Assembly: GCA_025361145.1 (NCBI GenBank)
Contig: JANYAV010000014.1
Span: 148,741 to 183,520 of the forward strand
Source of the DNA: Dehalococcoidia bacterium
GTDB taxonomy: Bacteria; Chloroflexota; Dehalococcoidia; Dehalococcoidales; UBA3254
DNA length: 34,780 nt
Reading direction: 5' to 3'
The notes below the pieces were generated by a model, which was given only the letters and a program-made list of their open reading frames with translations, ran no database searches and was not told the DNA's origin. How positions within the stretch are numbered: position 1 is the first letter of the stretch; the number at the start of each line of letters is the position of its first letter. Of the stretch, positions 12,326 to 34,242 are shown piece after piece. The position numbers and the translations under genes are program-made.

Positions 12326-15300
12326 ATGGAAGATATTATTTTAAGTATTGATGGGAAAGAAATCCGAACAGACAGCTCTCAGACTGTCTTTGAAGCAGCC
12401 AGAAATGCTGCTATCTATATTCCCGCTCTCTGTAACTATCCTGGTCTGGCGCCTTTACCTGATATCGCACCAGATATGTCATGTCAATTATGCATCGTGG
12501 AGATAGATAGCCAGATTGTTCTTTCCTGTAACACCCTGGCTGCTTCTGGCATGAGAGTAAATACCCGTACATCACAAATACAGGAGCTCAGGCGCAAGAT
12601 CCTCACAGATATACTTCGCCGCTATCCCATTGATACTCTTAAAAAAGACTTGCCTGAAAGCCGCGAACTACAGAAAGCTATTGATTACGTTGGGATTAGT
12701 GAATTACCTGCTTCTATTAGTAGACAGTTACCAGTGCGGGATGACAGCCCATTCTTTATCCGGGACAACAACCGCTGCATTCTCTGTTCGCGCTGTGTAC
12801 GTGTCTGCCAGGACATACGTCTAAATAAGGCAATCGAGTTTGCTTATCCCTGTTATAAAGCTTGTCCTGCAGGGATAGATATTCCCCGCTACATACGAGC
12901 TGTCGAACGTGGCCGTCCCAGCGTTGCTTTAGCCATAATACGTGAAAAAGTGCCTTTCCCAGGGGTTCTGGGAAGGGTCTGTATACATCCTTGCGAGCAA
13001 GCTTGCCAGCGCGGCAAAACTGTGGATAAACCACTCCATATACGGTTACTCAAACGATTTGCAGCCGATCACGGAGATGAGTCCTGGAAGAAACTGTCCA
13101 GGCATTTGCCGGATTCCGGAAAGAAGGTTGCAGTTGTTGGGGCAGGTCCCGCCAGCTTAACGGTTGCTTATTATTTGGCCAAATCAGGTCATAAAGTGAC
13201 CGTATTTGAAGCGCAGTCCCGGCCGGGCGGAATGATGTGGATGGGAATACCGGAATATCGCTTACCGCGTCAAGTTCTTGAAGGAGAAATCAAGGAAATC
13301 TTAGACGCTGGCGTCGAATTAATAGTTGATAGTCGGGTAAATTCTCTCGAGCCACTTTTCGACCAGGGTTATAACGCTGTCTTCCTGGGAATAGGAGCTC
13401 ATCAGGGCATGAAACTCGGTGTCGAAGGCGAGAATTTACCAGGGGTGATCGAAGCTGCTGAGTTCTTAAGGCAAGGTAATCTGGGAGAGAAAATAGAAGT
13501 AGGTGGCCGGGTTGGAGTGGTTGGTGGTGGCAATGTGGCTATTGATGCCGCCAGAATGTCACTTCGTTTTGGGGCTAATAAAGTAATTGTTTTCTACCGC
13601 CGGACCCGGGCTGAAATGCCTGCTGCTGATGAAGAAATAGAAGCTGCTTTGGCCGAAGGCATAGAAATACTCTATCTAACTGCTCCTGCTAAAGTCACTC
13701 GATCTAACGGAGTGTTACAGCTTGTCTGCCTGCGAATGAAATTGGGTGATCCCGATGCCAGTGGTAGACCGCGCCCGGAACCAGTGGAAGGGAGTGAGTT
13801 CATCACCGAATTCGATACTTTGCTGGTTGCTATTGGGCAGAAACCTGATTTACCGGTTGATCTGCAAGTTGAAGTCGGCAAAGGTAACGTTATTAAAATA
13901 GACGCTGATATGATGACCTCTAGAAAGGGCGTCTTTTCCGGAGGCGATTGCGTCAGTGGTCCGGCTTCGGTTATCGAAGCTATTGATGCAGGAAGAAAAG
14001 CGGCTGAATCTATTGACCGCTATTTGGGTGGAAAAGGAGATATATCCGAGTCGCTGGTTAACTTAAACGAATCTTTAGTTTTTCCTCCGGAAAAAGTTTC
14101 CCAGGAACAATTAGCAGAGGTTTCCCTTTTACCACCTGATAAAAGAGCAACCAATTTTAACGAAGTAGAATTGCCCTGGGATCGGGAGACAGCAACTTCT
14201 GAAGCTAAACGCTGCTTACGCTGTTACGTCATTGCCCCTCCCAATGATAAAGTCCTAAAGGATGCTGACTGTGAGTTTTGCGGTGCATGTGTTGATGCCT
14301 GCCCGACCGGTGCTTTACTTGAACGTAGAGGTCTAGTATCCGGTACAATTGATAAGGTTGTCTCAACTACTTGTCCATACTGCGGTACCGGATGTCAGCT
14401 TGACCTGGAAATTAAGGATGAAACGATCCAACGGGTTATTCCAGCTTATGGTGCATCCAACCGCGGCCAGGCTTGTGTTAAGGGCAAATTTGGTTTGGAG
14501 TATATTCACAGTCCTGATCGGCTTACCCACCCTCTTATTAATAGAAACGGACAATTTGAAACAGCCAGTTGGGATGAAGCTATTGACCTCATTGCTGAAA
14601 AATTTTCTACCTTTAAACCTGATGAAATTGCCGTTGTAGCGTCTTCAAGGGCTTCCAACGAAGATAACTACGTCGCACAGAAATTCGCGAGGGCGGTATT
14701 GCATACCAACAACGTCGATAACTGTGCCCGGGTCTGACACGCCCCAACGTTGGCCGGTCTGGCCAACACTTTCGGCTCTGGAGCAATGACCAATAACATT
14801 GAAGATATTGGTAATGCTGGTTGTATTATGTCAATCGGCAGCAATACCACCGCCGCCCATCCTATTATCGGCCTCAAGGTTAAGCAATCTGTGAAGCAGG
14901 GAGCCAAATTGATCGTGGTTAATCCCCGTGAAATAAAGCTAGTGCGCAACGCCGATCTCTGGTTGAGACTTAAGCCCGGCACCGATGTAGCCTTAATTAT
15001 GGGCATGATTCGCCTGATTCTGGAATCCGGACTGCAAGACCAGAAATTTATTGATGAAAAATGTGAAAACTTCTCTGCGTTACAAGAGTCACTGAAAGCC
15101 TTTCCTTTGGATAGGGTCGCTGCGATTACTGAATTGCCTTCCGAACAAATAATTGCCGCCGCCAAAATGTATGCCAGCTGCGGACCTTCCGCTATCTTAT
15201 ACACTCTCGGTATTACGGAACATACTCACGGCACGGATAGCGTGATGGCACTGGCCAATTTGGCCATGGTAACTGGTAACGTAGGTAAACCAGGCAGCGG

Positions 15301-16372
15301 AGTCAATCCCCTACGTGGCCAGAACAACGTGCAGGGCGCCTGCGACATGGGAGCCTTGCCCAATCTGTTCCCAGGTTATCAGTCTGTGACCAATCCGGAT
15401 ATCAGGGCTAAATTTGAAAAAGCCTGGGGCTGTTCCCTCAATCCACAACCCGGCCTGCCTTTAACCTTTATGTATAAGGCTGCCGCAGAAAAGAAGCTTA
15501 AAGCTATGTACCTTGTAGGTGAGGATCCGGTTTTAAGTGAACCCGATATGAATCATACCATCCAATCACTGAAAAGCCTCGATTTCCTGGTCGTGCAAGA
15601 CATCTTTATGAGTGAGACAGCTAAACTGGCGGATGTAGTTCTGCCTGCAGCCGGCTTTGCCTCTGATGACGGCACTTTTACCAATACCGAACGCCGCGTT
15701 CAGCGGGTCAGAAAAGCCGTGCCTCCTCCGGGACAAGCTAAACCTGATTGGGAAATTGCCTGTTTGATCGCTCATAAAATGGGTGCTAAAGGATTCGAGT
15801 ACACCCATGCCAGCGAAATCTGGCAAGAGATGACCGCTTTGACTCCTAACTTCTCCGGTATTAGCTACGAACGTTTAGAAGAAGAATTCGGCTTGCAGTG
15901 GCCCTGCACTTCTGCCGAACATCCGGGTACCTGTATCTTGCACACACATGGTTTTACCAGAGGCAAAGGAAAATTCACACCAATCAGTTATCGGCCTTCA
16001 GCCGAGTTGACCGATAAGGACTATCCTTTGATTTTAACCACCGAGCGCAGTATTTATCATTACCATACCGGCACTATGACTCGGAAGGTGCCCGGTTTAA
16101 ATCTTTTGAGAAGCGAAGAACTGGTCGAGATAAATCCATTCGACGCCGCTGATCTGGGTATACAGCAAGGAGATTGGGTTACAGTCACTTCTCGCCGCGG
16201 CCAGGTGGACTCAAGAGCCAAAATAACCACCGATTCACCCAAAGGTGTCGTTTGTATGACTTTCCATTTCAGTGAAAGCCCCACCAATGCCCTGACTAAC
16301 TCTGCCCTGGATCCCATATCTTTTACACCGGAGTATAAGGTCTGCGCGGTTAAAGTAACAAAGAAGACTTAA
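12326..16372 (+). CDS. fdhA: Selenocysteine formate dehydrogenase with nested GltD-like FAD/NAD(P)H module
   Basis: One 1348-residue gene read through UGA at residue 804 (ARV-U-HAPTLAGL). Order of parts: 2Fe-2S domain (C36, C53, C56, C68); first [4Fe-4S] motif C151/154/157/161; then a GltD-like module at about 175-632, starting with C176/C180 and C219/C223/C227, with FAD motif VGAGPAS near 271 and NAD(P) motif VGVVGGGNVAIDAAR near 396, ending EAKRCLRC. The second [4Fe-4S] motif is C649/652/655/659, and the molybdopterin domain begins with CPYCGTGC (683-690). The C-terminal MoCo domain ends near ICAVKV-type strands. It should interconvert CO2/formate with NAD(P)H, the first step of the methyl branch. 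An automatic caller would split it into two genes, the second from a false TTG at 14750. Both halves share one frame, so no frameshift is needed. Confidence 0.93.
14735..14737 (+). other. In-frame UGA selenocysteine codon of the formate dehydrogenase
   Basis: TGA interrupts a reading frame that stays open and homologous on both sides. The flanking residues NCARV-U-HAPTLAGL match the active-site context of selenocysteine formate dehydrogenases (NCARV-U-HGPSVAGL in E. coli FdhH, from memory). The selenocysteine is the expected molybdenum ligand and the next residue is the conserved catalytic His. Confidence 0.95.
14738..14767 (+). promoter_or_regulatory. bSECIS element for selenocysteine insertion
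   Basis: Directly after the UGA is a perfect hairpin: GTTGGCC (14749-14755), loop GGTCT (14756-14760), GGCCAAC (14761-14767). The loop contains the GGU that SelB recognises and is the same as the E. coli fdhF apical loop, and it begins 18 bases after the UGA, the same spacing as in fdhF (both from memory). It would recruit SelB with Sec-tRNA. No sel genes lie in this window. Confidence 0.9.
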
Positions 16373-32549: not shown

Positions 32550-33740
32550 TTAGCAGCAGCCTGCGCCCGCTGTAGAAGGATCCTCATAATATTCCTCATA
32601 TACTTCGCCGCTATCAAGTGATATAGAAACCGGATGAGGAACCATTGCACCAAAAAGATAACCCTGCTCACTCCATTTTTGTTGCTTAATTTCGTATTGA
32701 GTATTACCGGCTTCGTCACTGGCACGCGGTGTAATGGTCAGGTCTCCCGGCTCAGCATCAAAACAAAATTCCCAGCGAGTCCCGGCACGCTCAATATTAG
32801 GACCTGTCAGGGACACTGGTAAAAAGGTTTTGCCTCCGTCGAGACTAACATCAACTCTAGAGATACGCCCGAAGGGAGACCAGGCATATCCTGAGATTAT
32901 CTGATGCCCCGCTCTTAGTTTAGCCGGCCAGGGCAAACAGCAAGCGCTTTTCATCACCTGATTGGTAACCTCTGCTCTTCGATAACCCGCTTTTAAAGAA
33001 CGTTGGGATACGATTATTTTATTCGCCCACTTGGTGCTGGCGGTTCCTACCCAACCCGGCACGATAGCCCTTACCGGGAAACCATGATCTACTGGCAAAA
33101 TAGAACCGTTCATTATGTAAGCTAAAAGGGTATCGTCTTCCATAGCTTTAGATACAGGAATAGATAATCCTTCTGAATAATTATCTATTCCTTCCGTCTT
33201 CACTTCCGCTGCTTCTGGTTTTATCCCGGCTATTTTTAATATTTCAGATAGCTTCACTCCGGTCCATTCAGCAATGCCGAAGCCCCCAAAATGCCATTGG
33301 TAACCTGGTGCTTTTTTACCCATGAGCAAATCGTAAAATATGCGTCCGTTGCCCGCATCCTCCAAATAACGGGTATAAGCCACCGAAGGCAGCTGCAATA
33401 ATTCATCGTAGTTTATAGAAAACGGATTACTTACGCCGTCGCCTTCAACGCTTAAGCGCCATTTCTGAATATCTGTTAACGCCGGCTGGCTATGAGCATG
33501 TGTAAAAAACAAATAATTGGACGTAGTATAATGCCTCATATTCGCCATACTGGCGAAATTCATCTCCTTAATCGCAGGTTTTGTAGAGATGAGTGCACCT
33601 TTAGCGATACATCTGGCCAACAGACCGGCTGCTCCAGAATTTTCTAGGACGTCGAAGAATTCTTTTTGGGGAATCAACGCGGTTTGCGCCAGATTCCAAA
33701 GAGCAATAACTTTCGGTGTGTTTAAACCAATAGTTGTCAT
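32550..33740 (-). CDS. Sulfite-oxidase-fold molybdopterin protein with Asp in place of the Mo-ligand Cys
   Basis: A 396-residue protein of the sulfite oxidase/SoxC/YedY superfamily: a molybdopterin domain at about 90-270, including YQWHFGGFGIAEWTGVKLSEIL and DHGFPVRAIVPGWVGTASTKW, then a C-terminal dimerisation domain with RISRVDVSLDGGKTFLPV. The motif normally read LECAGNGR is LEDAGNGR here (D128), so the usual cysteine ligand of molybdenum is missing. No signal peptide or Tat motif is seen, so it is probably cytoplasmic, and it ends in GAGCC. Either the Mo site is unusual or the enzyme has lost this chemistry. A -10-like TAGACT lies six bases before the ATG. Confidence 0.82.
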   Translation of the reverse strand: MTTIGLNTPKVIALWNLAQTALIPQKEFFDVLENSGAAGLLARCIAKGALISTKPAIKEMNFASMANMRHYTTSNYLFFTHAHSQPALTDIQKWRLSVEGDGVSNPFSINYDELLQLPSVAYTRYLEDAGNGRIFYDLLMGKKAPGYQWHFGGFGIAEWTGVKLSEILKIAGIKPEAAEVKTEGIDNYSEGLSIPVSKAMEDDTLLAYIMNGSILPVDHGFPVRAIVPGWVGTASTKWANKIIVSQRSLKAGYRRAEVTNQVMKSACCLPWPAKLRAGHQIISGYAWSPFGRISRVDVSLDGGKTFLPVSLTGPNIERAGTRWEFCFDAEPGDLTITPRASDEAGNTQYEIKQQKWSEQGYLFGAMVPHPVSISLDSGEVYEEYYEDPSTAGAGCC

Positions 33741-33781: not shown

Positions 33782-34177
33782 TTATTTAATAACGAAGTTA
33801 AATGCTTGCTGTTTGTCTTCAGCTTTAGGGGATTCCCATGGCCTGTAATAGGTAAAAGTGATTTTGCCTTGACCCGCTTTTAAGGCCTTGAAAGTAAAGA
33901 AAGTGGTGCCGCCGGAACCCACGAGCTGCTGACCACTGTGATCATCCTGTTGATAGTCTTTTTTTACCTGGCTGACAAGCCCTGCATCAAAAACCGGCTG
34001 CCAATCATAACCTGTGGTTGGATTAGCCTGTAACGCAATAATAAATTCCTGGTTCTGGTTCAAATTGATCGGCTGGGTTGAGTCGGTATAGGTTGAAACC
34101 GTGCCGCCTACACAACCTGTCAATAAACCGGTCAATAACAATACTAAAGCCGACAGTATTACCAACGCTCTTTTCAT
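33782..34177 (-). CDS. Chagasin-like (I42) protease-inhibitor lipoprotein
   Basis: A 131-residue lipoprotein: signal peptide with lipobox LLTGC (C22), then the inhibitor I42 loops NPTTGYDW, the GSGGTTFFTF segment and YYRPWE. Members block papain-type cysteine proteases by inserting these three loops. The start is ATG 34177, with AAGGAG five bases upstream; the earlier in-frame ATG 34216 would put a basic extension before the signal peptide. No cysteine protease gene is near, so the target is unknown. Confidence 0.88.
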   Translation of the reverse strand: MKRALVILSALVLLLTGLLTGCVGGTVSTYTDSTQPINLNQNQEFIIALQANPTTGYDWQPVFDAGLVSQVKKDYQQDDHSGQQLVGSGGTTFFTFKALKAGQGKITFTYYRPWESPKAEDKQQAFNFVIK

Positions 34178-34242
34178 TTTTCTCCTTATACGCCTTCTTA
34201 GTTTCGTATAATACAACGATAAAATCCAAAAAACGTTAGTAC

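Follow-up and report, generated by a model that had tools for sequence, protein, structure and literature searches.

The locus and its gene neighbourhood

The window analysed here, a 34,780-nucleotide stretch from a Dehalococcoidia bacterium, carries on its reverse strand an open reading frame of 396 codons with no internal stop (32550-33740), whose product is a SoxC-like protein of the sulfite oxidase fold that has lost its catalytic residues. The fold, already proposed in a preliminary description of this DNA, is borne out by two matches above the Pfam cut-offs that place the protein in the sulfite oxidase fold superfamily: PF00174 (Oxidored_molyb; E 4.9e-44, 150.3 bits against a cut-off of 24) and PF03404 (Mo-co dimerisation; E 5e-8, 33.4 bits against 22.7). 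The best PDB match is the SoxC-type structure 2xts (E 2.5e-40), and the best NCBIfam match is SoxC (TIGR04555), at 182.3 bits and hence below the curated cut-off of 420. A single-sequence structure prediction (pLDDT 35) was too poor for use. Fold and domain order are those of the SoxC/SoxCD sulfite dehydrogenases. The protein can also be aligned residue by residue with vertebrate sulfite oxidase (PDB 1sox and 2a99; C185S mutant, 3hbg), with which it has the molybdenum and dimerisation domains in common, although the vertebrate heme domain is absent.

The gene context differs from that of its relatives. In all three that were checked, the next gene encodes a small c-type cytochrome whose sequence has a lipoprotein-like start, whereas the gene after the one in the window is convergent and methyltransferase-like (PF01035). 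Upstream are genes for an I42 peptidase inhibitor and for RadC. The inhibitor (33782-34216, reverse strand), directly adjacent to the sulfite-oxidase-fold gene, is of the chagasin family and has a lipoprotein-like start; it was considered as a partner and rejected, its one match in G001, a genome of the same genus, being weak and located on a different contig, with none in six further genomes. On the whole, the neighbouring genes point to no new function.

Losses and retained residues at the active site

Codon 128 (33357-33359, reverse strand) is GAT, which puts an aspartate, within RYLEDAGNGR, at the site of a molybdenum-ligating cysteine that is regarded as invariant across the sulfite oxidase family. 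This substitution had been noticed from the DNA alone, and alignment upholds it: D128 falls exactly on Cys185 of chicken sulfite oxidase, and the column holds cysteine in all 65 homologues in which it can be read, from searches of the order (156 genomes), of 393 genomes from the class and of 400 from the phylum. The preliminary description had allowed that another cysteine might occupy the ligand position, but in the alignment no neighbouring cysteine of the window protein fills the column. It had also held that homologues uniformly with cysteine would imply a sequencing error or an inactive copy. The uniformity is real, but going from TGC or TGT to GAT takes at least two base changes, so one sequencing error cannot account for Asp128. 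Admittedly, Asp128 itself is documented in a single genome, because the only other sequences from the same family, in G001 and G002, are pieces that stop short of residue 128. Given the many other derived features of the protein, several of them common to G001 or G002, we nevertheless consider an error of sequencing or assembly at the cysteine codon of an otherwise ordinary sulfite dehydrogenase extremely improbable. A DNA-motif scan for [FY]xEDAGNGR, which covers that exact motif alone, gave 16 stretches in the assemblies of 84,980 species (a set that may omit the source genome), none of them encoding a relative of the query. A peptide-pattern scan of assemblies likewise found no close relatives, and viral contigs yielded none that were usable.

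The aspartate is one among several coordinated losses. In the alignment of 63 homologues, conservation reaches 97% or more in 64 columns. Of these the window protein retains 57, and it departs from the other seven by R81H, C128D, N254R, T255R, the loop Tyr, the loop Gly and N357S. All but one of these seven positions belong to the active site (in chicken numbering Cys185, Arg138 and four in the Tyr322 loop). At codon 81 (CAT; 33498-33500, reverse strand) a histidine stands where 63/63 aligned homologues have the active-site arginine, chicken Arg138, which we take to be human Arg160. The human R160Q variant, altered at a residue within the Mo active site, has normal molybdenum and an activity under 5% (review PMC10574614). 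Further along, the alignments show an altered and shortened segment (residues 246-259; 32964-33005, reverse strand) in place of the invariant NTxxY...G loop, which aligns with the region of the catalytic tyrosine (chicken Tyr322), the loop being some 18 residues shorter than in the relatives; Tyr253 lies nearby, and its placement requires a structure. Of 106 columns conserved in 33 homologues, 25 differ in the window protein, as against 2-9 in its five nearest relatives in a leave-one-out comparison. Such a combination makes a simple ligand swap in an otherwise working sulfite enzyme less likely. It also divides the earlier statement that the rest of the fold is intact and argues against general decay, which is sustained by the open frame and the selection described below but fails at the active site itself.

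The near-invariant columns that were kept include R133, W149, D186, H219, R224, K237 and W238. Since H219, R224 and K237 align with human His304, Arg309 and Lys322, which bind the cofactor, it is possible, judging by sequence, that the window protein binds it as well. The retention of these pterin-pocket residues may, however, reflect the requirements of the fold alone.

Termini, relatives and selection

Both ends of the protein are altered. The five near relatives, which are of the same order, have an RRxFL motif and a lipobox at the N terminus, whereas the corresponding region of the window protein (residues 23-51, IPQKEFFDVLENSGAAGLLARCIAKGALI; 33588-33674, reverse strand) has lost both the twin arginine and the lipobox, reading QKEFF and containing charged residues in the stretch. 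The piece from G002 is changed in the same way (SQSEFF). This loss of the Tat/lipoprotein signal suggests that the protein is probably cytoplasmic. At the other end, an extension past the normal family end (about residues 375-396 and the stop; 32550-32618, reverse strand), absent in the five near relatives, closes with the GAGCC that had been pointed out earlier as adding two cysteines. The tail is genuine, and G001, ending in LTGGCC, has the Cys-Cys pair in common with the window protein.

The nearest relatives (L005-L009) show 51-58% identity in the parts of each that were matched first. In the tree the window protein forms a fully supported group with these five, its branch measuring 0.89 as compared with 0.11-0.20 in its sisters. 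Its own family is represented by the two pieces, which have derived features in common with it. That of G001, at a contig edge, comprises the last 64 residues; that of G002 (L084, 1427-1792, reverse strand) covers residues 2-111 and then breaks off, through either truncation or misassembly, so that this copy may be truncated. The local GC of the G002 piece is about 0.42-0.44 and that of its contig 0.53. Against the C-terminal piece from G001 we obtained a dN of 0.30, a dS of 1.85 and a dN/dS of about 0.16; against the N-terminal piece from G002, pN was 0.33 and pS 0.85 (saturated). In neutral simulations run to 55% identity none of 100 sequences stayed free of stops, the mean number being 7.

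Early decay of the gene in the source genome, that is, a young pseudogene, might be suspected from the long branch, the interrupted copy in G002 and the loss of catalytic residues. Yet all 396 codons are open, the losses among the near-invariant columns are concentrated at the active site and the rest are kept, and the low dN/dS with G001 and the stops that arise under neutrality point the same way; we therefore regard decay as distinctly unlikely. With a dN/dS below 1 on these partial sequences and stops expected under neutrality, sequence change appears to have been fast yet constrained, and a change of role fits better than simple decay.

Cofactor supply and possible roles

The genome encodes MoaA and two further PF00174 proteins, both with the cysteine, and with these present the molybdenum cofactor is probably made, as far as gene content can tell. 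The paralogues (L002, G000:C14:2321-2755, and L003, G000:C2:19110-19526) are short sulfite-oxidase-fold proteins that keep the cysteine in IHCVTTWS and LNCVEGW, respectively; one of the two has a lipoprotein-like start.

Could the protein be a working molybdoenzyme of altered chemistry, with molybdenum ligated by Asp128 or by C395/C396 of the tail and a substrate other than sulfite? The earlier suggestion of a precedent is correct: molybdenum is ligated by aspartate in the NarGHI nitrate reductase (PMC9370002). However, NarG belongs to the DMSO reductase family and not to that of sulfite oxidase, the common feature being the residue type alone, and a limited search of the literature found no description of a natural aspartate ligand in the sulfite oxidase fold. 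The retained pterin-pocket residues, the Cys-Cys tail conserved in G001 and the presence of MoaA would all suit such an enzyme. On the other hand, Arg138, the Tyr322 loop and the cytochrome partner have gone along with the cysteine, and the histidine at position 81 is not conserved, G002 having Phe there. As the other catalytic residues and the electron acceptor were lost together, we think a working site of this kind less likely than the explanation given below, and rather doubtful. The more specific proposal, that a naturally evolved protein of this fold holds Mo-molybdopterin by Asp128 or by a cysteine of the new GCC tail and performs some new reaction in the cytoplasm, strikes us as unlikely.

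The explanation that we prefer, with somewhat better than even confidence, is a lineage-specific derivative of a SoxC-like enzyme, probably cytoplasmic, that no longer oxidises sulfite and has been kept for another role; it would probably be a repurposed protein and not an ordinary enzyme in which a single metal ligand is unusual. Its ancestor would have been a Tat-exported, lipid-anchored SoxC-like sulfite dehydrogenase, encoded, as in the relatives, beside a small c-type cytochrome. Within this bacterial family the export signal, the electron acceptor, the Mo-ligand cysteine, the active-site arginine and the catalytic tyrosine loop would then have been lost, while the fold stayed, together with residues that hold the pterin and its phosphate in known enzymes. 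Sulfite oxidation by the derived protein is most likely gone. Selection would maintain a cytoplasmic protein that may bind molybdopterin, or a molybdenum form of it without cysteine ligation, and that could serve as a pseudoenzyme (perhaps a molybdopterin-binding one), a carrier or a sensor. As the fold has been kept, and the cofactor pocket too as far as the alignment shows, with the cysteine, arginine and tyrosine loop lost, the gene amounts to a natural experiment that could reveal whether the cofactor is held without a thiolate and what purpose such a protein has. Annotation through a domain match would label it a sulfite oxidase, which is probably wrong.

Elsewhere in the window, a formate dehydrogenase-like fusion gene (12326-16372, forward strand) has an in-frame TGA (14735-14737; RVUHAPTLAG), consistent with selenocysteine. 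A hairpin 3' of this TGA scored no better than shuffled sequences (z -0.49), and a tRNA-Sec is found in the genome above the Rfam cut-off.
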